Below, in pieces: positions 3,970-59,458 of a DNA stretch of 64,000 nt (position 1 is the stretch's first letter; each line of letters opens with the position of its first letter). The DNA is from Gammaproteobacteria bacterium (lineage in GTDB: Bacteria; Pseudomonadota; Gammaproteobacteria; SZUA-152). The stretch is from assembly GCA_021647705.1 (NCBI GenBank), contig JAKIUF010000002.1, positions 62,001 through 126,000 on the forward strand, read 5' to 3'. Below the pieces are notes generated by a model. That model was not told where the DNA came from. It saw only the letters and a list, made by a program, of their open reading frames with translations, and did not search any database. A program made the position numbers and the translations under genes.

Positions 3970-4566
3970 GCATAACCTCGTCGAGGGTGGGTGTTGCGGG
4001 AAGCATAGCGTGGAACAGGAAGCCTGTAAATTTAACGGCGTGTCATATCCAGACTTTAGTAGATTGTTGGTCGCCAGGTATTTTCAAAAATACAAATGTA
4101 CTCATAGCGTCTGAGATTTAGGCCTGAATTTCAAAACATTCAATTAAAACCTGATCTTAGCGTTCTGCATATGCTGTGATATAGCCCAGTGCATGCTTTA
4201 TTTTCTGCCTACCGGTATCTCATTCAAGCTGACAATAAAAAGACAAAAACAAGCCGCCTGTTTTTCTAATATGTTAATCGCTAGCATTGCGGATGTTCCG
4301 GGTTTTGATGAGGCAACAAACGTCACCCAGTTTTTTCGGTACGAAGCTGGTTGCTCGCCGGGAGGCGTCAACAACACAATGTTCGCTAAAATAAATGACT
4401 TTATTTGCAATATGGTTTGTATAACGTTTTCGTTTCCCCCAAAAAGACTGGCCAATAAAAACATGTTCGTTTTTGACGGGATGCCATGAAAGCTATTCCG
4501 GTGCGTAGTAAATGGAAAAACAACAATGGAAAACTTGGATGTGAAACTCAACAGACCTTAAAAATA
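3970..4566. other. Intergenic stretch without a recognisable gene
   Basis: About 600 bp of AT-rich sequence. Two overlapping open frames on opposite strands (4193-4489 plus, 4198-4551 minus) show no recognisable protein, signal peptide or good ribosome binding site, so I treat both as chance. Bases 4104-4130 resemble 10170-10196 next to repeat copy A (both contain GATTTAGG then TGAATT), which hints at a decayed repeat. Confidence 0.5.
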
Positions 4567-4571
4567 CCCGC

Positions 4572-4599
4572 AAAAAAAAGCGCCCGGTGAAGGGCGCTT
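4572..4599 (-). terminator. Rho-independent terminator of glnK-amtB
   Basis: The stem AAGCGCCC (4578-4585) pairs with GGGCGCTT (4592-4599) around a 6-nt loop. The A run at 4572-4579 becomes the U tract on the minus strand. It lies 45 bp past the amtB stop codon. Confidence 0.85.
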
Positions 4600-4643
4600 G
4601 AAGTTGTCTGTTTAAGGACAGACTTATTGTTATGTCATTTACA

Positions 4644-5927
4644 CTATTTATTGGTGAACTCGGGATAAGCCTCCATACCGCACTCGGTAAGATCGACTCC
4701 CTCGTATTCTTCCTCTTCCGTGACGCGGACTCCCATGATCATCTTGATAACCATCCAGGTTATGTAGCTGACCACGAATACCCAGACCAGAATGGTGAGC
4801 ATGCCCACGATCTGACCGCCGAAGCTGGCAGCGCTATTGGTAAGTGGTACGGCCAATAGACCCCATATACCGACTACGCCATGCACTGAAATAGCACCCA
4901 CCGGGTCATCAACCTTCAGCTTATCCAGGCCGATGATGGCAAAGACCACCAGCAGGCCACCGAAACCACCAATCAGAGTGGCCTCCAAAGCGGAGGGTGT
5001 GGAGGGCTCAGCAGTAATTGCCACCAATCCAGCTAACGCGCCATTAAGTGTCATGGTCAAATCAGCCTTGCCGAACAGCAGCTTGGCCACAATCAGCGCA
5101 ACAATCACGCCACCCGCAGCGGCGGCATTCGTGTTCAGAAACACCATGGCGACCGAGTTGGCATTGGCAATATCGCCTAGTTTGAGCACGGAACCACCAT
5201 TGAAACCGAACCAACCCATCCACAGGATGAACGTGCCCAATGTTGCCAGAGGCAGATTGGCTCCCGGAATTGCGTTGACTGAGCCATCTTTGCCGTACTT
5301 GCCTTTGCGAGCACCCAGTACCAGCACACCGGCTAAAGCCGCAGCCGCACCTGCCATATGCACAATGCCAGAACCGGCAAAATCGGAGAATCCGAAATCA
5401 TCACCGAGGTTGTACATGCCAAACACAGAGCTGCCACCCCAGGTCCAGCTGCCTTCCATGGGGTAGATGAAACCGGTCATCACTACCGCAAACAACATAA
5501 ATGCCCAAAGTTTCATGCGCTCTGCAACAGCACCGGAAACGATGGACATGGCGGTTGCTACAAAGACCACCTGGAAGAAGAAGTCAGATGCATTGGAATA
5601 CACTGCGCCTCCATCAAAGCCAGCTTCGGCAGATTCTTTTAATACCGCACCGACCATGGCATCTGTATTTTCAGCACCGTCCAATACGATGTTGGCCAGG
5701 AACATGCCGCCGTCGTACATGATGTCGTAGCCGACAGCCAAGTACATGGTGCAGGCAATGGCAAACAATACGACGTTTTTGGTGAGAATTTCGGTGGTGT
5801 TTTTAGAACGAACCAGTCCCGCTTCCAGCATGGCAAAACCTGCTGCCATCCACATCACCAAGGCACCACACACCAGAAAATAAAAGGTGTCCATGGCGTA
5901 CTGCAAATGAAAAATATTAGCTTCCAT
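4644..5927 (-). CDS. amtB: Ammonium transporter AmtB
   Basis: The protein has 427 residues and forms an ammonium channel of the Amt/Mep/Rh family in the inner membrane. About 11 hydrophobic segments are visible. The pore twin histidines are His190 (in SGIVHMAG) and His349 (in ISVHGVVG), and the conserved LEAGLVRSKN segment lies at about 35-43. Unlike E. coli AmtB, no cleavable signal peptide is obvious: the N-terminus is a short MEANIFHLQY stretch before the first membrane segment. A GGGGAG ribosome site precedes the ATG. It lies 18 bp downstream of glnK, the normal pairing in which GlnK plugs the channel when nitrogen is replete. It is expected to share the sigma-54 promoter upstream of glnK, and a hairpin terminator follows the stop. 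Confidence 0.97.
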   Translation of the reverse strand: MEANIFHLQYAMDTFYFLVCGALVMWMAAGFAMLEAGLVRSKNTTEILTKNVVLFAIACTMYLAVGYDIMYDGGMFLANIVLDGAENTDAMVGAVLKESAEAGFDGGAVYSNASDFFFQVVFVATAMSIVSGAVAERMKLWAFMLFAVVMTGFIYPMEGSWTWGGSSVFGMYNLGDDFGFSDFAGSGIVHMAGAAAALAGVLVLGARKGKYGKDGSVNAIPGANLPLATLGTFILWMGWFGFNGGSVLKLGDIANANSVAMVFLNTNAAAAGGVIVALIVAKLLFGKADLTMTLNGALAGLVAITAEPSTPSALEATLIGGFGGLLVVFAIIGLDKLKVDDPVGAISVHGVVGIWGLLAVPLTNSAASFGGQIVGMLTILVWVFVVSYITWMVIKMIMGVRVTEEEEYEGVDLTECGMEAYPEFTNK

Positions 5928-5945
5928 TATTATGTACTCCCCGCT

Positions 5946-6398
<453 letters not shown>

Positions 6399-6480
6399 TT
6401 ATTTGATCTCATTATTTTTTTCATATTTCCTCCCCAAATTAAAGGTGTGTTAATTGATTTGAAAATCTCCAACCACATAT

Positions 6481-6496
6481 AGCACCGACTGTGCCA
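6481..6496 (-). promoter_or_regulatory. Sigma-54 promoter of glnK-amtB
   Basis: Read on the minus strand the sequence is TGGCACAGTCGGTGCT. It matches the consensus TGGCACG-N4-TTGCW at the whole -24 hexamer and at the -12 GC, with correct spacing. The predicted transcript would begin near 6470, leaving a leader of about 185 nt before glnK. rpoN itself is at 19040-20575. Confidence 0.8.
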
Positions 6497-6560
6497 AGAT
6501 ATGTAATGGTACTTTTTTCAGTAAGTTATGATAATTTTACAGACTCAGCCGATCCTGTTG

Positions 6561-6619
6561 TGCACCAAAATGAGGAGGTCGGCAAAGGCGCGCACCATTA
6601 TTGAGCGCTATATTGGTGC
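6561..6619. promoter_or_regulatory. NtrC-type enhancer sites upstream of glnK
   Basis: Three boxes resemble the NtrC consensus GCAC(C/T)A-N3-TGGTGC: TGCACCAAAATGAGG (6561-6575, one good half), GCACCATTATTGAGC (6592-6606, one good half) and GCGCTATATTGGTGC (6605-6619, both halves, one mismatch). They sit about 65-125 bp upstream of the -24 element, the usual enhancer distance. They could also influence the divergent ubiK. Confidence 0.65.
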
Positions 6620-6759
6620 GGGCATTTTTAGGGCACGCAAAAATAAGCCATATTGGGAATTGTGTGTGCGTCACTGGCCAGTACCCGCCTTATCTCGTTA
6701 AGATAATACGTGGCAGATGCAATGCATCTGTTGAGAAAATCATGAAGGAGGTCAGCAAG

Positions 6760-7017
6760 ATGTTTGAAAATCGTTTAGACCCTAAAAAACTGGATGAACT
6801 GGCTCGCGGCGTGTTAGACAAACTGCCGGCCGGTTTTCAGACCCTGCAGCAGGACATGGAAAAAAATCTGCGGGCCGCCCTGCAAGCCGCACTGACTAAA
6901 ATGGAATTGGTGACCCGCGACGAATTTGAAGTACAAAGCGCGGTACTGCAACGTAGTCGTGAAAAACTGGAGGCACTGGAAGCAAGGGTGGCTGAACTGG
7001 AAAAACAACTGAAATAA
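6760..7017 (+). CDS. ubiK: Ubiquinone biosynthesis accessory factor UbiK (YqiC/BMFP family)
   Basis: The protein has 85 residues and starts MFENRLDPKKLDELARGV. The ATG follows AAGGAGG by 7 nt, which fixes the start. A short N-terminal amphipathic region is followed by a central helix with the conserved TRDEFEVQSAVL segment and a C-terminal coiled coil (REKLEALEARVAELEKQLK), the typical brain-membrane-fusion-peptide (BMFP) layout. By family knowledge UbiK forms a complex with UbiJ and supports aerobic ubiquinone synthesis at the membrane/lipid droplet. Its position divergent from glnK-amtB is shared with Pseudomonas-like genomes. The IS1380 element begins 61 bp past its stop. Confidence 0.88.
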   Translation: MFENRLDPKKLDELARGVLDKLPAGFQTLQQDMEKNLRAALQAALTKMELVTRDEFEVQSAVLQRSREKLEALEARVAELEKQLK

Positions 7018-7021
7018 CTTT

Positions 7022-7050
7022 CTTCCCGGTAGATACATAATACCGGGAAG
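7022..7050 (+). terminator. Hairpin just after ubiK
   Basis: The perfect 10-bp stem CTTCCCGGTA / TACCGGGAAG with a 9-nt loop starts 5 bp after the ubiK stop. No T run follows, so it could be an incomplete terminator or an mRNA-stabilising hairpin. Confidence 0.45.
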
Positions 7051-7073
7051 CTCCCGGCACTCCTGCCATAAGG

Positions 7074-7078
7074 TAGAA
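7074..7078. repeat. Left target-site duplication TAGAA
   Basis: It is the direct copy of 8767-8771 on the other side of the IS; 5 bp fits the IS1380 family. Confidence 0.85.
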
Positions 7079-7100
7079 CCTAAATCCTGCAAGCATATAG

Positions 7101-7136
7101 TGCGCTGGGCTATGTCCCAGCGAGTTGGTTGTTTTT
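7101..7136 (+). terminator. Hairpin plus T-rich tail inside the IS left end
   Basis: The stem CGCTGGG / CCCAGCG with a CTATGT loop is followed by a T-rich run (GTTGTTTTTTA). It would stop plus-strand transcripts entering the IS from ubiK, a common way for an IS to shield its transposase from antisense or read-through effects (inference). Confidence 0.6.
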
Positions 7137-7311
7137 TATACAGGCATTGAGCCGATCAGGCTCTGAATTTCAGCTCTACCCTGTAAAACGCCTCTTGCAG
7201 TACTCGCTGATTAAAAATGGTGTATGTTTTTTGTGCAATTCGTACGGGGCAATCAAGGCACCGCCTGCCTGTCTTTTCAAAGCATGCAAAGATTATGGTT
7301 ATACGTGTTCG

Positions 7312-8670
7312 TTAAACGGCAAGCTGTAACCAATCATCCCAAGGGGTAGCATGCAAGTGTTTTTCGGGTAAAACAATGCGAATCTGGTTGCCCCCGGTTA
7401 ATAACTTCCCCGCAACACAAATAAAATAAACACGAATACTTTCGGGTTCCCATTTTTTTAGCTGTGCATTATTACTGGTTAATGCCATCCACCGTAGTGT
7501 GTTGTAAGCTAATATAGCGGATTGAAACAAGACCGCATTGGCAAAAAAATCATTGGTTTTTATATGGGCTAACCCCAATTGGCTCTTCGCTTCTTCAATC
7601 CAGGTTTCACTGGTTGCCCGTTGTCCGTAACATTTATGCGTTTCCCATTCAGTCTTATTTTCCGTGGTGACGTAACAAAAATAATCATAACTCTTCACAT
7701 CCAGCAAGGTGTGTTGAGGCGAATATTCACGGTCTTTTTCTTGCCTGACAGCCACGAAAAGTCGTGAAGCATTCCAGCCCTTCGCACAGTGCCAAAAACG
7801 GCATTGTTCCCATCCGGGTTTTCCATCAATCGCGGTCCACTGTTGGCGGGCCAATAGTGTCGCAAGATTTTTTAGTTTCACTTTGATGAGATAACCATGA
7901 CCGAGTGCGTCAAGATAATCCAGTAATGCACCGACAAAATAGCCACTGTCACCTCGAAAAATGATGCGCTGTGAGGCAGGTAGTTGAGCAAGCAGCTGTT
8001 TCATGAATTCGACCACACCATTACTGGTATAAGCACTCCCCATACGGAGCCAGCCCTGGAGGATTTCTTTTGTATGCGTACAAAAAGCCAATTGTGGGTG
8101 GTACGAATATGCACCTTTTTTATGTGGATTATAGCCTTTGGCAACCCCTTCCTGTTTCCCATAAACGGTTTTCACACTCGAATCGACATCAATCCATAGC
8201 GTCTGCAAGGCTGCAACATTGCTGTTTCCTTCACGCAAGGCTTTTTGCCACACCGTTTTACGTAACACATGTATCAGTGTTTCCATTTCACTGATATGGC
8301 GAGCTCCCACTTCTTTAAATAATCGGCCCAATGTTGTTTCATCGGGAATTCGCAACCATCCAGCAGCTTTTTGTAATACGCGGCAACCTGACCAAAGCAA
8401 CGCACATTTACTGATGCTAAAGGCACCACCGATTAAACCTGTGAGTATGAGAAAAACACCCTCTTCAAGGCGATAAAACGCATTGTCTTTTCGTTCATGG
8501 TTAACGGTTTTTTGAAAGAGTTGATTAAACCCAAGTTTATCCAGAAATTTGATGACAGGAATAAGCCCCGCTTTGCTGGTCATATTTTTTCCGGTTTTCT
8601 GAAAATGGACTTTGGCTGACTTTTGACGGGCTTTACGGGTACTGGCTTTTTTTCTGTTATGCATATTCAT
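7312..8670 (-). CDS. IS1380-family transposase
   Basis: The protein has 452 residues with a basic N-terminus and a DDE (RNase H-like) catalytic region. Candidate acidic residues are Asp161 (LWIDVDSS), Asp241 (FRGDSGYF) and Glu355/Glu359 in YGQRATSETWIEEAK, the family's Y-x2-R-x2-x-E-x-WI-x-E signature. Length and motifs fit IS1380-type enzymes, which move by cut-and-paste. The frame is unbroken, so the enzyme may be functional. It sits inside the two 15-bp inverted repeats, with its start about 80 bp from the right end. No accessory gene is present in the element. Confidence 0.92.
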   Translation of the reverse strand: MNMHNRKKASTRKARQKSAKVHFQKTGKNMTSKAGLIPVIKFLDKLGFNQLFQKTVNHERKDNAFYRLEEGVFLILTGLIGGAFSISKCALLWSGCRVLQKAAGWLRIPDETTLGRLFKEVGARHISEMETLIHVLRKTVWQKALREGNSNVAALQTLWIDVDSSVKTVYGKQEGVAKGYNPHKKGAYSYHPQLAFCTHTKEILQGWLRMGSAYTSNGVVEFMKQLLAQLPASQRIIFRGDSGYFVGALLDYLDALGHGYLIKVKLKNLATLLARQQWTAIDGKPGWEQCRFWHCAKGWNASRLFVAVRQEKDREYSPQHTLLDVKSYDYFCYVTTENKTEWETHKCYGQRATSETWIEEAKSQLGLAHIKTNDFFANAVLFQSAILAYNTLRWMALTSNNAQLKKWEPESIRVYFICVAGKLLTGGNQIRIVLPEKHLHATPWDDWLQLAV

Positions 8671-8766
8671 GAAAATAGTGACTCATCGGTTATGGTTAAA
8701 TCTGGGTAACTGATTGATGAGTTTACCTTTTTCTTTCATTAAGTGTTTCTACTTGCAGGATTTAGG

Positions 8767-8771
8767 TAGAA
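8767..8771. repeat. Right target-site duplication TAGAA
   Basis: It is the direct copy of 7074-7078, immediately outside the right terminal repeat. Confidence 0.85.
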
Positions 8772-8800
8772 TGCCACCACGTTGTGACCGGTGGACTGCC

Positions 8801-19039: not shown

Positions 19040-20575
19040 ATGAAGCAAACTTTACAGCTTAAACTGGGTCAGCACCTGACCATGACCCCTCAGTTGCAAC
19101 AGGCTATCCGCTTGTTACAGCTCTCTACTCTGGAGTTGCAAACGGAGATTCAGGAGGCGCTTGAATCCAATCCGATGCTGGAGGTTACAGAGGAGGCCGC
19201 TGCGGAACGTCGTGAAAACGACAGCGGTGAACGGAATGATGGCGAAGCGAGCACCACCGCTGACAGCACCAGCGGTGAAAATCGTATTGAAAATCGGAGT
19301 GAAGATGGCGAAAACATCGATGTAGCTGACCGTGCTGTGGACAAACAGGAACAGGAAATTCCTAACGACCTGCCTACCGACAGTGAATGGGAAGACTCCT
19401 ACAGTGATACCTACGTCGATTCCTACAGCTCTGTTTCGCGGAACAATAACGATAGCGAGAACTTAAGTTACGAACAAGCGGATAGCAGCAGCGAAAGCCT
19501 GCAAGATCATTTATTATGGCAGCTGAATCTTTCCTCTTGCAGTGAAACCGACCAGGCCATTGCTACAACCATTATTGATGCTGTTGATGACGATGGTTAT
19601 CTCAGTACATCGCTGGAAGAACTGCATCAATCTTTGTCCGAAGGTAACGACATTGAACTGGATGAAGTCGAAGCGGTATTACACCGCGTGCAGAATTTTG
19701 ACCCGCCCGGTATTGCTGCCCGTGATCTTCGCGAATGTATGCTGATCCAATTGAAGTATTACGATGCGGAAACACCCTGGCTGACTGAAGCAAAGGTGTT
19801 GCTCAGAGAGCATTTTGATTCCTTGGCCAAACGTGAATATCCACTGATTATGCGCCGCATGAAATTGGCCGAAACACAAATGCAGCATGTCATTCAGCTG
19901 GTGCAAAGCCTCAATCCGCGACCCGGCGGACATATCACAGAGAGTCAGCCTGAATACATTATTCCCGATGTTTTTGTGAAAAAGATAAAAGGTCAGTGGC
20001 GTGTGGAACTGAACCCGGACATCACACCAAAAATCGGCATTAACAGCCTTTACGCAAAAATGGCACAACGCAATAACAGCAAAGATGCTACTTTTTTGAA
20101 AAATAATTTACAGGAAGCACGCTGGTTTATTAAAAGCCTGCGCAGTCGTAACGAAACGTTGCTAAAAGTAGCAACAACCATTGTTGATCGTCAGCGCGGC
20201 TTTTTTGATCACGGTGAAGAAGCCATGAAGCCTATGGTGATGCACGATATCGCAGAAATTGTGGAAATGCATGAATCAACCATTTCCCGAGTCACCACAA
20301 AAAAATATATGCATACCCCGCGGGGCATATTTGAACTGAAGTTTTTCTTTTCAAGTCATGTGGGAACGACGACGGGCGGTGAATGTTCAGCCACCGCCAT
20401 TCGCGCAATTTTGAAAAAATTGATTGCCGCTGAAAAACCGGGCAAGCCATTGAGTGATAATAAATTGGCAGGTTTGCTGGGTGATCAGGGTATCAATGTG
20501 GCACGTCGCACGGTAGCAAAATACCGTGAAGCAATGTCCATCGCACCATCCAATGAACGTAAACGGCTTGTCTAA
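19040..20575 (+). CDS. rpoN: RNA polymerase sigma-54 factor RpoN
   Basis: The protein has 511 residues. The Gln/Leu-rich activator-interaction domain lies at 1-50 (LKLGQHLTMTPQLQQAIRLL). It is followed by a long acidic Ser/Glu/Asp linker (about 52-155), the core-binding domain, the DNA-binding HTH and the RpoN box ARRTVAKYR at 488-496, which contacts the -24 element. It is somewhat longer than E. coli RpoN (477 residues) because of the acidic linker. The gene order lptB-rpoN-hpf-ptsN is the widely conserved one. A matching promoter is visible at glnK. Confidence 0.97.
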   Translation: MKQTLQLKLGQHLTMTPQLQQAIRLLQLSTLELQTEIQEALESNPMLEVTEEAAAERRENDSGERNDGEASTTADSTSGENRIENRSEDGENIDVADRAVDKQEQEIPNDLPTDSEWEDSYSDTYVDSYSSVSRNNNDSENLSYEQADSSSESLQDHLLWQLNLSSCSETDQAIATTIIDAVDDDGYLSTSLEELHQSLSEGNDIELDEVEAVLHRVQNFDPPGIAARDLRECMLIQLKYYDAETPWLTEAKVLLREHFDSLAKREYPLIMRRMKLAETQMQHVIQLVQSLNPRPGGHITESQPEYIIPDVFVKKIKGQWRVELNPDITPKIGINSLYAKMAQRNNSKDATFLKNNLQEARWFIKSLRSRNETLLKVATTIVDRQRGFFDHGEEAMKPMVMHDIAEIVEMHESTISRVTTKKYMHTPRGIFELKFFFSSHVGTTTGGECSATAIRAILKKLIAAEKPGKPLSDNKLAGLLGDQGINVARRTVAKYREAMSIAPSNERKRLV

Positions 20576-33493: not shown

Positions 33494-34852
33494 TCAGCGG
33501 CCCGCGCGTCGTGTGTCAATTCCCAGGGTACGCAATTTGCGATAAAGGTTTGTCCGTTCCATGCCCACCAGTCTGGCCACTTTACCCACGCTGCCGCCGG
33601 CCTGTTGTAAATGATATTCGAGATAGGCTTTTTCAAATTGCTCACGCGCCTGACGCAAAGGCAAATCAAAATTTGCCGGGTCCATGCCCCCAAATGATAC
33701 CGCGCCAGCATCCAGTGCTGCCTCCACTTCATCCAGTCCAATATCAGTTTCCAGTCCCAACACCAACAAACGCCGTACTAAACCTTCCAATTCGCGGATA
33801 TTGCCCGGCCATTCATAGTGACGCAAGCGATTTTGTGCCGCCACCGTAAAATTACGATAAGGCAAGGCTTCTTTATCTACTAACAGGTTAACGTAATAAA
33901 CCAGCAGCTCGGTGACATCTTCCACATGCTCGCGTAGGGCGGGTACATGTACTGGCACAACATTAAGTAGATGATACAAATCCTCACGAAAACGGCCAGC
34001 GCGGATTTCCTGTTCCAAATCATAGTGAGTAGCGGTGATAATACGCGCATCCAGTGTCAGGGGCTGGATGCCATTCATGCGCACCCATTTGCCTGTGCTC
34101 AAAACAGCAAACAGGCTGTCCTGCATGTCGGCATCCAGCTCGGCAACATCATCCAGAAACAGCGTGCCACTTTGAGCCTGTTCGAGAAAGCCGGGCTGAA
34201 TATCCGTGCCTTCTTCTTTACCAAATAACAATACATCGCCCTGGCCATCGTGAAATTGCCGGGTATGCACATCGACAAACGGGCCATGTTGTCGTGCAGA
34301 ACGCGCATGAATATATTCGGCACTGAATGTTTTCCCGCTGCCGGGCTCACCGTAAAACAACACGGTTCCCGAATGATGTGCCAGTTTTTCCAGTTGTTCG
34401 CGTAACAATTGAATCTGCACGGTTTTACCCACCGGTGGTACAGGCTGTAATGGTGCTCGTTGCAGATTACCCGGTGTATTTTGTTTTGCTTCTGCCAGAG
34501 TGTGTTCAACGGTGTGTAGCAGCTTGGCCAGCGACAGGGGTTTCTCAATAAAATCTTTGGCACCCAGGCGGGTGGCTTCTACCGCCGTTTCCACATTGCC
34601 GTGGCCGGACATCATGATCACCGGGGCTGTCATGGCCATATCGCTGGAAAATTCTTTTAACAGCGTAATACCATCAATGTCAGGCATCCAGATATCCAGC
34701 AAAATCATGTCGGGAACCTTCTGGCGCACCAAATGCCGTGCGGACTCACCATTTTCTGCAATGGCCACCACATAACCTTCATCTTCCAGAATATCTTTTA
34801 CCAATGTACAGATATCCGGTTCATCATCCACCACTAAAATATAGGGTTTCAT
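33494..34852 (-). CDS. ntrX: NtrX-type response regulator without GAFTGA motif
   Basis: The protein has 452 residues from the ATG at 34852 (a TTG three codons upstream is possible). The receiver domain (1-120) has VVDDEPD and phosphoacceptor Asp53 in ILLDIWMP. The central AAA+ domain has Walker A GEPGSGKTF, Walker B TLFLDDVAEL and FREDLYHLLNVV. The segment that normally carries GAFTGA reads LLFGKEEGTDIQPGFLEQA, so the sigma-54 contact loop is missing. The Fis-type HTH is at the C-terminus (SVGKVARLVGMERTNLYRKL). It is the partner of NtrY, encoded just upstream. It may act as a DNA-binding regulator without opening sigma-54 promoters. Confidence 0.9.
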   Translation of the reverse strand: MKPYILVVDDEPDICTLVKDILEDEGYVVAIAENGESARHLVRQKVPDMILLDIWMPDIDGITLLKEFSSDMAMTAPVIMMSGHGNVETAVEATRLGAKDFIEKPLSLAKLLHTVEHTLAEAKQNTPGNLQRAPLQPVPPVGKTVQIQLLREQLEKLAHHSGTVLFYGEPGSGKTFSAEYIHARSARQHGPFVDVHTRQFHDGQGDVLLFGKEEGTDIQPGFLEQAQSGTLFLDDVAELDADMQDSLFAVLSTGKWVRMNGIQPLTLDARIITATHYDLEQEIRAGRFREDLYHLLNVVPVHVPALREHVEDVTELLVYYVNLLVDKEALPYRNFTVAAQNRLRHYEWPGNIRELEGLVRRLLVLGLETDIGLDEVEAALDAGAVSFGGMDPANFDLPLRQAREQFEKAYLEYHLQQAGGSVGKVARLVGMERTNLYRKLRTLGIDTRRAGR

Positions 34853-34910
34853 TGTTTTCAATTTACCTTTACACAGTTTTCCTTGTACCCAAGGAAGTGC
34901 CTATCAGATT

Positions 34911-37145
34911 TTATCTTCCACTGTTCTGTGTTCGTTGCGTTTCCGCCAGTGGTGTCATATCAATTTTTAATGCTGGCAAACGTATTACGATACGTGCGCC
35001 ACCTTCCGTTCGATTTTCTGCATACAACAATCCATTATGCTCTTCGACAATACGCTTAACCACAGCCAAGCCTAAACCGCTGCCTTTTGGTTTATTGGTG
35101 ACATAGGGTTCAAACAGGTTTTCCAGCATGTCAGGTGGAATGCCTGGGCCATTATCTTCAATCTTGATTTCCACAACATGTTCCGAGGCATGCTCCACTT
35201 CCTGTAAATGGATGTCCACCTTGCCCTGCGGCGTGTCAGATAATGACTCGATGGCATTACGAATCAGGTTATGCAACAGTTGACGAATACGTCCGACATC
35301 AGCTTCCACCATTGGTGTTGATTCTTTTTTGCCATGCACGAACAAATTGATGGCCTGTTTTTCCCCCGCATACAAATCCAGTACTTCGCCAATCAAGACC
35401 GCTAGCACCAACGGCAAAGGTTGTAGTTTTGGTGCGCGGGCATATTCAGAAAAAGCCTCTACCATGTCTTTCATTGATTGCACCTGCTGCACAATGGTGT
35501 GCGTGGAACGATCAAGCACTTCAGCGTCTTCCGGTGCCATTTTACCGAGATATTTATGCCGCAGGCGTTCTGCAGAAAGCTGGATGGGGGTTAGCGGGTT
35601 TTTAATTTCGTGGGCCAAACGTCGTGCCACTTCGCCCCAGGCAGCATCACGCTGCGCCTGAATCATCGCCGTCACATCATCAAACACCACGACAAACCCT
35701 GATGTCATGCCTTTTACACCGGGCAGTCTTGCACCCTGACACATCAGGGTTTTGTGTCGCCCAAAACCGGTTAATGTGATTTCTTCGCGCCAATCATCGA
35801 CATCATCATCAATGTGTTTTGCGATGGCGGCGATAAATGTTTTCAGCTCCGGCGCATCATGTTCAATCTGCTCCAGACTCTTGCCCATGGCAGAATCCAT
35901 GTCCTGTTCCAGAATATGGTTGGCCGCAGCGTTGACCGCGCGCATACGTTGATTTTTATCCAGCGTGATAACCCCGGATGAAAGCCGCCCCAGCACGGCA
36001 CGTAAATAGTTTTGCTCACGCTCGGCCCGATGCTGACTTTTTTGCGCATCCCGTTGCGCTTCGGAAACCTTGTTGGTCATATCCATAAAAGACTGCACCA
36101 ATGCACCCAGTTCATCTGTTGTGCGCGTAATCGGCAGCTTTTTCTGATAATTACCCGAAGCCACGGCGCGCGTGCCAATGGCCAGAATGCGTATCGGTGC
36201 AACCAGTCGCTGGGCAAAAAAGAAGGCCGCCCACACCGCTGACAGCAGGGTCACCAATAACACTAGCGCCAGAGTAAAACTAAAACTTTGTTTCAGCGGA
36301 TTACGTAAATACACCAGTTCTTTGTATTGAGTAATGGCCAACTGCACACCGTCTGCCAGTACACTGACCCGCGCATCTATCGGATACAACATAAACAATA
36401 TACGCGGATCAACAGCAGCACTCGATGTGTCAATTTGCACTGCGGCACGAATATGCAACCCCATGTTGTCGATGGGGGCCAGCCCTACATAGTCATGTTT
36501 ATCACGCACTTGTGACAAAATTGAGCCGCCAGGCTTTTGCGGAATAATGGTCATGGTGTCAGCGCTTGAGGAAGCAATTACCCGTCCGCTTTGAAATAAC
36601 AGGGTAAGTTCGCTGGCACCACTTTCATCACGCAATTCATTCAGTCTGAACATGACAATTGCGTTCGGTGTTTCCTGTAGTTCAACAGCAATGGCCCGTG
36701 TCTGTTTGAGTCGATCCCGCATACGCATATCCAGCGATGAGCGACTTAGCTCCAATGAATCTTCCATGGCACGTTCTAATCGCACATCAAACCAGCTGTC
36801 GATGCCTTTTTGCAAAAAACCTAACGAAAAATAGAAAACAATGGAGACGGGCACCAGGGCCATAACGACAAATATTATTACCAGCCTGACGGTCAGTCGC
36901 GAACCCGTGGCGGCACGACGATATTGGCGCACCAGGCGTACCACATCAATACCGATTAAACCCACCAGCACGATCAGCCCTAATACGTTGACCACCACCA
37001 GCGTCACATGCATGCGCCCGAACTGGCCGGAGTTTTCTGTTGCCGCACTCAATAACCATAATGAGCCAAGCATAAAAATGGCCATGATGATGACCGGCAC
37101 CACGCTGGTGGACATGCGCCGCAGCCATACCAGTAATTTACCCAT
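34911..37145 (-). CDS. ntrY: NtrY-type membrane sensor histidine kinase
   Basis: The protein has 744 residues from the ATG at 37145 (a TTG at 37166 is also in frame). There are about four N-terminal membrane segments, two before and two around a large periplasmic loop of about 170 residues. A HAMP domain (about 320-370), a PAS-like domain (about 385-490), the HisKA box LAHEIKNPLTPIQLSAERL with the phosphorylated His, and an HATPase with N box (LHNLIRNAIES), G1 DNGPGIP and G2 GSGLGLAVV follow. By family it senses redox or nitrogen state and phosphorylates NtrX, encoded 58 bp downstream. Confidence 0.92.
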   Translation of the reverse strand: MGKLLVWLRRMSTSVVPVIIMAIFMLGSLWLLSAATENSGQFGRMHVTLVVVNVLGLIVLVGLIGIDVVRLVRQYRRAATGSRLTVRLVIIFVVMALVPVSIVFYFSLGFLQKGIDSWFDVRLERAMEDSLELSRSSLDMRMRDRLKQTRAIAVELQETPNAIVMFRLNELRDESGASELTLLFQSGRVIASSSADTMTIIPQKPGGSILSQVRDKHDYVGLAPIDNMGLHIRAAVQIDTSSAAVDPRILFMLYPIDARVSVLADGVQLAITQYKELVYLRNPLKQSFSFTLALVLLVTLLSAVWAAFFFAQRLVAPIRILAIGTRAVASGNYQKKLPITRTTDELGALVQSFMDMTNKVSEAQRDAQKSQHRAEREQNYLRAVLGRLSSGVITLDKNQRMRAVNAAANHILEQDMDSAMGKSLEQIEHDAPELKTFIAAIAKHIDDDVDDWREEITLTGFGRHKTLMCQGARLPGVKGMTSGFVVVFDDVTAMIQAQRDAAWGEVARRLAHEIKNPLTPIQLSAERLRHKYLGKMAPEDAEVLDRSTHTIVQQVQSMKDMVEAFSEYARAPKLQPLPLVLAVLIGEVLDLYAGEKQAINLFVHGKKESTPMVEADVGRIRQLLHNLIRNAIESLSDTPQGKVDIHLQEVEHASEHVVEIKIEDNGPGIPPDMLENLFEPYVTNKPKGSGLGLAVVKRIVEEHNGLLYAENRTEGGARIVIRLPALKIDMTPLAETQRTQNSGR

Positions 37146-37175
37146 CACAGTTGGTCTGCTGTGCAAAGCGGCTCA

Positions 37176-56494: not shown

Positions 56495-59458
56495 TTAATC
56501 GGCGTTTTTCAGCCATGCATGCCAGATGCGTTGCACAGTGTTGCGTTCTGTCGCAAACCGCTCGTCTGCCACCACCGCGCGCAATTCCTGCAAGGCAAGC
56601 CGATGTACTTCTGCCCGGTAACGTCGGTAAATATCAGCCAAGTGGCGTGCATCTGCGGGGGGCATCAGTGCCTGTCTGGCAAAGCTGTCCAGCACTCGAA
56701 CGTTGTCCGTAAATTCGCTTAATGCGGGATAATGACGTGCCCAATTCAAAACCCCGAATTGAACCATAAATTCGATATCAGCGATACCGCCACGACCCTG
56801 TTTAAGGTCAAATTCATCCTTGCGCGTGCGATCCAGTGATTCACGCATACGTTCGCGCATATCGATGATGTCTTTTTTTAGCGATATAACCTCTCGTGGC
56901 AAAGCGAGTATTTCCTGGCGCAAACCATCAAAAGCCTGTTTCAGTGACAGATCACCCGCGACCACTCGAGCTCGCACCAGTGCCTGATGTTCCCAGGTCC
57001 ATGCCTTGTGATGTTGATATTCGCTGAAACTGCTCAAGCTGGTTACCAGTAGACCGGATGCGCCGCTGGGACGCAGGCGCATATCGGTGTCATAAAGCAC
57101 ACCTGCCGGGGTATGGGCTGTGAGGATGTGAATAATGCGTTGCCCCAGTCGGGCATAAAACACATTGTCTGCCACCGGCTTGGGGCCATCGGTGACTGCC
57201 ATCTGGTTTTCAGCCTGATGCACAAACACCAGATCCAGGTCCGAGCCGTAACCCAGTTCGATACCACCGAGTTTGCCGTAAGCGACAATGGCAAACCCTT
57301 TTGCATCCTTTTTCCGGTTAGACAGACAGGCTGGTCGTCCGTGACGCGCCAGCAAATATTTCCATGCCAGCTCCAATGTTGCCTGCAATATCAGTTCGGC
57401 AATGGTGGTCAATTGGTCGCTGACTTGCATCAGTGGCACAGCTTCCATCACGTCAGCTGCCGCGATGCGCAATACACTCACCTGTTTGAATTGTCGCAGA
57501 CTGTCCATGGTCTGTTCCAGATCTTCGGCAGGTATCTGTTTGAGACTGCGTTGCAGTTCGGTTGTTAATTCGGCTCGATCCGGTGGACTGTAGAGACTGC
57601 GGGGGTCGAGCAGTTCGTCCAGCAACAATGGGTGATGGGCCAGTTGTTGTGCGATCCGGGGACTGGCTGCGCACAAGCGCACCAATTGTGACAACGCCAT
57701 AGGGTGCTCACTCAACAGAGCCAGATAGGCGCTGCGCCGGGCAACGGCTTCCACCAGCGTCAGCAAACGTTGTAACACAACATGCGGTGAATCAGGCCGG
57801 GGCTCCAGTGCCATCACGGCACCCAGCAACAAGGGCATCAGCCTGTCCATACGTGTGCGGCCAATACGCGACAAAGATTGATAATCCCGGGCTGATTTAA
57901 GTACCTGTAAGCGTGACCAACTGGCGGCAGGCTGGTCATAGCCTGCTTGCTGCAACAGGGCAATGGCCTCGTCTTCCTCCGGGTTACCCAACCAGAGCGT
58001 ACTTAAACCTGAGCTGTCTGTATCGGCATGGCGTGTTTGCGGCGATTCAAACACCTGTTCAAAATGGTTATGCACTCGGGTCATGTGACCGCGTAATACG
58101 GGCAAAAATTCGTCCCAGTGATCGAAGCCCATGGCAAAAGCCAGACGCTGTTGGTCCACATCGTTGTCCGGTAATTGATGTGTTTGCTGATCTTGGTATT
58201 CCTGCAAGCGATGCTCGGTATTACGCAGAAATTCGTAAGCAGTCAGTAATTGTTCCACCACATAATCCGGCAGATGTTGCTGCTCTTTTAGCCAGGTCAG
58301 CACACCTTGAATATCACGTCGTTGCAGTGCTGGTTCACGTCCGCCACGCACCAGTTGAAAGGCTTGACCGATAAACTCCACTTCACGGATACCACCTGCG
58401 CCTAGCTTGACGTGATTGTCCATGTTTTTACGTCGGACTTCGGCGGCAACCATTGTTTTCATTTCACGCAGTGCCTCGAAAGCACCGTAATCCAGATAAC
58501 GTCGAAATACGAAGGGCCGCAGAATAGTAAACAGTTGCTCACCGGCTGTTGCATCGCCCGCAACAATACGTGCCTTGATCAGTGCGTAACGCTCCCAGTC
58601 CCGGCCATGAGCCTGATAATAATTTTCCAGTGCGGCAAAACTGCATGCCAGTGCGCCGCTCTGGCCGAAGGGCCGCAGACGCATATCCACCCGAAAGACA
58701 AAACCGTCTGCCGTGTTTTCATCCAGCGCACGTACCAGTTGTTGACCGAGACGGGTGAAAAATTGCTCGTTGCTGACATTTCGAGAAGATCCTCCAGTTG
58801 TATTGCCTGTCTCGGGATAAACAAAAATTAAATCCACATCGGAAGAAAAATTCAGTTCATCTGCACCCAGCTTGCCCATGCCCAGCACTAACAGTTGCTG
58901 CGTTTCACCCTGTTGGTTTTGTGGCTCACCCCATTCTGTGATCAGTGCATTTTGCAGCCAGGCCAATGCACCTTGAATGCAGGCATCTGCCAGTGCAGAA
59001 ACATTGCCCATGGTTTCATTGAGATCAGCCTGTTCATCACCCTGGGAAATATCCCGCCAAGCGATGCGCACCATCTCGCGTTGGCGCACATGGCGTAGTT
59101 GCCGGGCCAAAGATTCAGTATCAGTCACATCCTGCAAAGCCGTTTGTACGCGCTGTTCCATTTCACCTGTTGCATAACGGCGGTGCAGGTCTCCACTGTT
59201 CAGTAAGTCCAACAGTAATGAGGGCTGACGCACACAGCGCTGAGCGATAAATTCGCTACAGGCCCAGGCACGGCACAATTCGCTGAGCAGTTTGTCATTC
59301 CAAACTGGGGGGGGGATTCCATCTGCTGTTATCGCCGTCACAAAATCAGCCCATTGGTATTGTACGGTTTCCCGCAAAACCACAGGCAGTGGTTCCAGAG
59401 CAGTAGTAAGGTCAGGCAGGTTATGAGGCTTTTTTGTCACAGCAAATCTCTCGTCCAT
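56495..59458 (-). CDS. glnE: Glutamine synthetase adenylyltransferase/deadenylase
   Basis: The protein has 987 residues. It carries two nucleotidyltransferase domains: VLGMGKLGADELNFSSDVDLIF (deadenylation, about 190-215) and IVAYGKLGGIELGYGSDLDLVF (adenylylation, about 705-725), each followed by its helical GlnD-PII UR domain. PII (GlnK or GlnB) and glutamine decide which reaction prevails, linking this gene with the glnK locus at 6 kb. It is probably co-transcribed with ilvE and the zinc-finger gene. It is divergent from pilU, with a 100-bp promoter space. Confidence 0.97.
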   Translation of the reverse strand: MDERFAVTKKPHNLPDLTTALEPLPVVLRETVQYQWADFVTAITADGIPPPVWNDKLLSELCRAWACSEFIAQRCVRQPSLLLDLLNSGDLHRRYATGEMEQRVQTALQDVTDTESLARQLRHVRQREMVRIAWRDISQGDEQADLNETMGNVSALADACIQGALAWLQNALITEWGEPQNQQGETQQLLVLGMGKLGADELNFSSDVDLIFVYPETGNTTGGSSRNVSNEQFFTRLGQQLVRALDENTADGFVFRVDMRLRPFGQSGALACSFAALENYYQAHGRDWERYALIKARIVAGDATAGEQLFTILRPFVFRRYLDYGAFEALREMKTMVAAEVRRKNMDNHVKLGAGGIREVEFIGQAFQLVRGGREPALQRRDIQGVLTWLKEQQHLPDYVVEQLLTAYEFLRNTEHRLQEYQDQQTHQLPDNDVDQQRLAFAMGFDHWDEFLPVLRGHMTRVHNHFEQVFESPQTRHADTDSSGLSTLWLGNPEEDEAIALLQQAGYDQPAASWSRLQVLKSARDYQSLSRIGRTRMDRLMPLLLGAVMALEPRPDSPHVVLQRLLTLVEAVARRSAYLALLSEHPMALSQLVRLCAASPRIAQQLAHHPLLLDELLDPRSLYSPPDRAELTTELQRSLKQIPAEDLEQTMDSLRQFKQVSVLRIAAADVMEAVPLMQVSDQLTTIAELILQATLELAWKYLLARHGRPACLSNRKKDAKGFAIVAYGKLGGIELGYGSDLDLVFVHQAENQMAVTDGPKPVADNVFYARLGQRIIHILTAHTPAGVLYDTDMRLRPSGASGLLVTSLSSFSEYQHHKAWTWEHQALVRARVVAGDLSLKQAFDGLRQEILALPREVISLKKDIIDMRERMRESLDRTRKDEFDLKQGRGGIADIEFMVQFGVLNWARHYPALSEFTDNVRVLDSFARQALMPPADARHLADIYRRYRAEVHRLALQELRAVVADERFATERNTVQRIWHAWLKNAD

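Follow-up and report, generated by a model that had tools for sequence, protein, structure and literature searches.

The glnK-amt operon of this gammaproteobacterium is very likely transcribed from an NtrC-activated, sigma-54-dependent promoter, as judged from its DNA. Within the window, the stretch of 64,000 nucleotides that was analysed, the operon is preceded by an ordinary, well-conserved control region of the textbook kind, in which an overlap between two NtrC-type sites and the apparent relic of a porin gene are minor variations. The features on which this reading is based are as follows.

4644-5927, minus strand: amt, ammonium transporter (TIGR03644 "marine subtype", 676 bits, cut-off 514)
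5946-6284, minus strand: glnK, P-II regulator (NF007946, 189.4 bits, cut-off 181; ELYRGAEY T-loop stretch)
6285-6470, minus strand: leader of ~186 nt, probably left by the deletion of a torF-type porin gene
6362-6424, minus strand: 20-codon open reading frame with a Shine-Dalgarno-like GGAGG, probable relic of the torF start
6481-6497, minus strand: sigma-54 (-24/-12) promoter element TTGGCACAGTCGGTGCT, top score in the window, kept before glnK in relatives
6516-6528, plus strand: IHF-like box TTTCAGTAAGTTA, degenerate (7 of 9 positions) and by itself not significant, lying between promoter and enhancer
6561-6577, minus strand: weak NtrC-type site C CTCCTCATTTTGGTGCA, 10 of 14 positions with one good half-site, ~99 bp upstream of the expected start
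6591-6607, minus strand: NtrC-type site B CGCTCAATAATGGTGCG, 10 of 14 positions, centre ~129 bp upstream of the expected start
6604-6620, minus strand: NtrC-type site A CGCACCAATATAGCGCT, 11 of 14 palindrome positions, centre ~142 bp upstream of the expected start
6760-7017, plus strand: ubiK (ubiquinone accessory factor), divergent (NF047835, 93 bits, just under the cut-off of 100)
19040-20575, plus strand: rpoN (sigma-54), three sigma-54 Pfam domains, RpoN box ARRTVAKYR
56495-59458: glnE

The sequence-only reading had placed a -24/-12 element on the minus strand here, and one is present. TTGGCACAGTCGGTGCT follows the TGGCAC...TGC pattern, with 10 nt between its GG and GC blocks, and scores 14.0 on a weighted consensus scale (maximum 15.5), ranking first among the 20 sites of at least 13 on both strands of the window. 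Its -12 block reads GTGC, not TTGC, which counts against an NtrC/sigma-54 promoter, and because the 4.44-Mb genome contains 96 matches to TGGCACN6TGC, as compared to 26 for a reversed control pattern, a single match is not decisive. With the GC block taken as -13/-12, glnK transcription would be expected to start near position 6470. A sigma-70-type promoter was dropped as an alternative, since no match was found in 6281-6765, where shuffled sequences average 1.3.

Upstream of this element, GCGCTATATTGGTGC had been noted at a distance of about 110 bp and one base away from an NtrC-type site. It lies at 6605-6619, within site A, is separated from the sigma-54 element by 107 bp, and differs by one mismatch from GCACYAWWWTRGTGC. 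The claimed NtrC-type enhancer is present, but it consists of three sites and not one, those at 6591-6607 and 6561-6577 having been missed. Sites A and B share 4 bp, where their weak inner half-sites meet, and their centres are separated by 13 bp; C lies 30 bp from B. Together the three form the sole triple of NtrC-type sites of at least 10/14 within 60 bp in the window. Two observations count against the enhancer: the window contains no perfect NtrC palindrome, its best single site reaching 11/14, and GCACYAWWWTRGTGC with at most one mismatch is found at six places in the genome, the same number as for the reversed control and thus without enrichment. Because the count equals that of the control it proves nothing, and it is the places of the sites that are informative. 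One of the six lies before ntrB, one between nirB and a narK-type gene, and one before glnK; for the other three no place at a nitrogen gene is obvious, which counts against the reading, as does the lack of a strong sigma-54 element adjoining the ntrB palindrome. The palindrome between nirB and the narK-type gene, both of which are cut by the locus end and fall under their model cut-offs, is accompanied by sigma-54 sites of 15.0 and 14.5. At glnA, CGCACCACCATTGTGCA (12/14) is followed by a sigma-54 site of 12.5 at 136 bp below. A terminator-like match at 6605-6619 was discarded, as it is the NtrC palindrome itself.

The strongest evidence that promoter and enhancer exceed chance is their conservation. 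Upstream regions of glnK were drawn from 110 loci (L024-L133), of which L027 is the window itself, represented by its own sequence, and two (L102 and L105) had no glnK match, leaving 108 regions. A sigma-54 site of at least 13 with an NtrC-type site of at least 10 placed 60-190 bp upstream was found in 54 of these 108 regions, which come from related sequences and are not independent events, as compared to 26 of 2160 first-order Markov shuffles. Removal of five second copies and two wrongly sliced loci gave a cleaned figure of 51 of ~101. About half of this wider set is without the pair at the thresholds used, which counts against the reading; that half pools the effects of search radius and motif strictness with genuine loss. 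Among the 10 other genomes of the same genus with readable upstream DNA, nine have the pair, seven within 700 bp and two (G005 and G010) farther up, ahead of a porin gene, while the tenth, G011, has no recognisable element and counts against it. The outer arms of the overlapping sites, GCACCA and TTGGTGC, are invariant in all nine aligned same-genus sequences, the window included; left out of this alignment were L032, where no element is recognisable, and L034, which has a single palindrome instead of the overlapping pair. In several other genera, a palindrome that is complete or nearly so stands in the place of site B, ~108-112 bp upstream of the sigma-54 element. Site C persists with minor changes in the seven subclade sequences and L033, is altered in L031, and is not evident in L034. 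Gene order is likewise kept: in 102 of the 108 loci, an ammonium transporter gene comes after a PII gene on one and the same strand.

The regulators that such a promoter would need are encoded in the genome. The search for glnG/ntrC that the sequence-only reading had suggested found ntrC on contig C58 (L013; 749.7 bits against a cut-off of 558.6) next to ntrB (397.6 bits, cut-off 240), and GlnD is also present (940.5 bits, cut-off 519.4). The rpoN and glnE genes were both found in the window, as had been stated. Together with the conservation of promoter and enhancer, the presence of ntrC and ntrB supports the predicted response to nitrogen limitation. In the NtrC of the window's genome (G000), the sigma-54-contacting loop reads GSFTGA in place of GAFTGA, a variant common to 8 of the 11 sequences from the genus, which represent 7 of 10 genomes with G000 counted; GAFTGA is found in G001, G005 and G009. 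Two relatives, G010 (99% complete) and G006 (81%), have no NtrC over the cut-off though the sites are kept, which counts against NtrC as the activator; an assembly gap is a possible cause.

Control of the same sigma-54 promoter by a different enhancer-binding protein was weighed against control by NtrC. Candidates exist, as the genome encodes nine strong and three weak sigma-54 activator domains, and one of the nine belongs to an NtrX-like protein encoded in the window (33494-34861, minus strand). However, the sites read as NtrC palindromes, with similar ones before glnA, ntrB and nirB/narK, and the NtrX-like protein is a poor candidate because no GAFTGA loop was found in it. A protein without this loop should not open sigma-54 complexes. 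Activation by the NtrX-like protein or by another AAA+ activator is consequently judged very improbable. Still less credit is given to an enhancer shared with the divergent ubiK as a bidirectional NtrC control region. A sigma-54-like match, GTGGCAGATGCAATGCA (12.5), does lie at 6710-6726 on the plus strand, between site A (~90 bp away) and the ubiK ATG (33 bp away), but it is not kept in relatives: none of the ten other same-genus sequences compared exceeds 11.5, and of the 66 stretches of 220 bp upstream of ubiK just 2 score at least 13. Bidirectional control was rejected on this ground, and ubiK is a neighbour outside the NtrC unit.

Under activation by NtrC, the promoter would work in a familiar manner. 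When nitrogen is limiting, signalling through GlnD and PII would let NtrB phosphorylate NtrC, and phosphorylated NtrC would bind the site cluster centred 99-142 bp upstream of the start and oligomerise there. DNA looping, possibly helped by IHF, would then bring it to the sigma-54 RNA polymerase waiting at 6481-6497, and ATP hydrolysis by phosphorylated NtrC would open the complex, so that GlnK and the ammonium transporter would be made. As to IHF, 8 of 20 family sequences have, at the offset of the box in the window, one that matches at all nine positions, as compared to 1.3% of shuffles; seven of the eight come from one genus.

The leader between the expected start and glnK probably remains from a torF gene that lost its internal part and kept a short open reading frame, which is the simplest reading of its alignments with relatives. 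A gene of 219-235 codons lies between the promoter region and glnK in G005 (L033), G010 (L031) and G011 (L032). For the G010 protein, TIGR02001 (TorF family putative porin) gives 58.8 bits (cut-off 47.15), and the proteins of G005 and G011 are tied to it solely via a model made from two of these three proteins. By that model a similar protein is present at 18 of 107 loci, or 16 minus second copies, with the two source sequences included. The window's genome gave no TIGR02001 match at an E value of 0.001. Counted from the sigma-54 element, the first 80 nt (as far as ATGAAAA) align with the leader that precedes torF in L033, and the last ~110 nt of the leader align with the end of torF and the spacer of L032. 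These two loci carry the argument for the 5' and 3' parts, though no significance was computed for their alignments, whose gap-heavy middles are meaningless; alignment with L031 is clear only near glnK. A search for structured RNA gave no Rfam match at the gathering score in 4500-8800.

The 20-codon frame in this leader could instead encode a working leader peptide. All seven subclade sequences (the window, L024, L025, L026, L028, L029 and L030) keep a Shine-Dalgarno-like stretch and an ATG, with a frame that stays open for 16-20 codons. Across the five sequences of equal length, however, the variable columns are spread evenly over the codon positions (4, 5 and 5), no selection on the peptide was seen, and both length and sequence of the frame differ in L025 and L030. 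The even spread of variable columns makes the frame look like a relic, and a working peptide is considered quite improbable. A more far-reaching version takes the enhancer as a compact unit, GCACCA-N16-TGGTGC, that may seat NtrC in another way than do the separated dimer sites of glnAp2 and that would originally have driven torF-glnK-amt, with the porin later deleted and a translated stub left in the leader; this version is speculative and rather doubtful. If the preferred reading of the leader is correct, it is a minor case of an operon eroding while its promoter is conserved. In relatives, the position of a TorF-type putative porin gene behind an NtrC-type promoter and ahead of glnK hints that nitrogen scavenging may include an outer-membrane step. 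Among the literature matches listed, there was no report of TorF (or TIGR02001, or gcw_chp) beside glnK, a statement that concerns those matches and not print as a whole.

The arrangement can be set beside several known systems. At E. coli glnAp2, the enhancer sites lie ~100-140 bp upstream with a spacing of ~32 bp. The 30-bp spacing of sites B and C is close to this, whereas the overlap of an additional site A with B sets the present enhancer apart from glnAp2. E. coli glnK-amtB is listed as a target of RpoN and NtrC, with an NtrC-box given as TGCACCAnnnTGGTGCA (PMC8743547); measured against that box, the region upstream of glnK here has three imperfect sites of 10-11/14, conserved in relatives. 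For Salmonella glnKamtB, TGGCACATCCTTTGCAAT is given together with a response to nitrogen starvation via NtrC, and enhancers are described as commonly lying 70-150 bp upstream (PMC3844500). The present operon resembles both in its content, in its TGGCAC-type sigma-54 element and in predicted NtrC control through NtrC-box sites (PMC8743547, PMC3844500). It differs from them in having its NtrC-type sites arranged as two overlapping ones with a half-site in addition, in lying next to ubiK and not mdlB, and in encoding a marine-subtype Amt. In P. stutzeri A1501, glnK is NtrC-dependent with a putative NtrC site, amtB1 and amtB2 are cotranscribed in a glnK-amtB1-amtB2 arrangement, and a single PII gene is described (PMC8443478), as apparently in this assembly; in contrast, one amt gene follows glnK here, and the leader carries a probable porin relic. 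At Xylella glnA, too, putative sites for NtrC and IHF are reported together with a sigma-54 promoter (PMC3224663).

The operon had been named glnK-amtB, which stands as far as a glnK gene followed by an ammonium transporter gene behind the promoter, but not for the transporter type. The transporter scores 162 bits against canonical AmtB (PRK10666) and 676 against TIGR03644, and because the latter match is far the higher, it is a marine-subtype Amt and "amt" is the safer name. The analysis provides a sound regulatory annotation of glnK-amt for a gammaproteobacterial genus whose named records, as far as found, are metagenome-assembled genomes. The window's genome yielded a single close GlnB/GlnK-type PII gene, along with three others at 28-38% identity. 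A second PII gene at 72-76% identity is present in 7 of 11 same-genus genomes, and for G000 an assembly gap is possible.

Elsewhere in the window, a gene for an IS1380-family transposase (7312-8670, minus strand) lies directly downstream of ubiK. The gene for the NtrX-like protein has directly upstream of it that of a large histidine kinase (34911-37166, minus strand), and trkA and trkH adjoin. At 14-2761 on the plus strand, a 915-residue open reading frame contains long Ala/Glu/Arg-rich repeats, which by eye resemble a coiled coil, and possibly a membrane segment.
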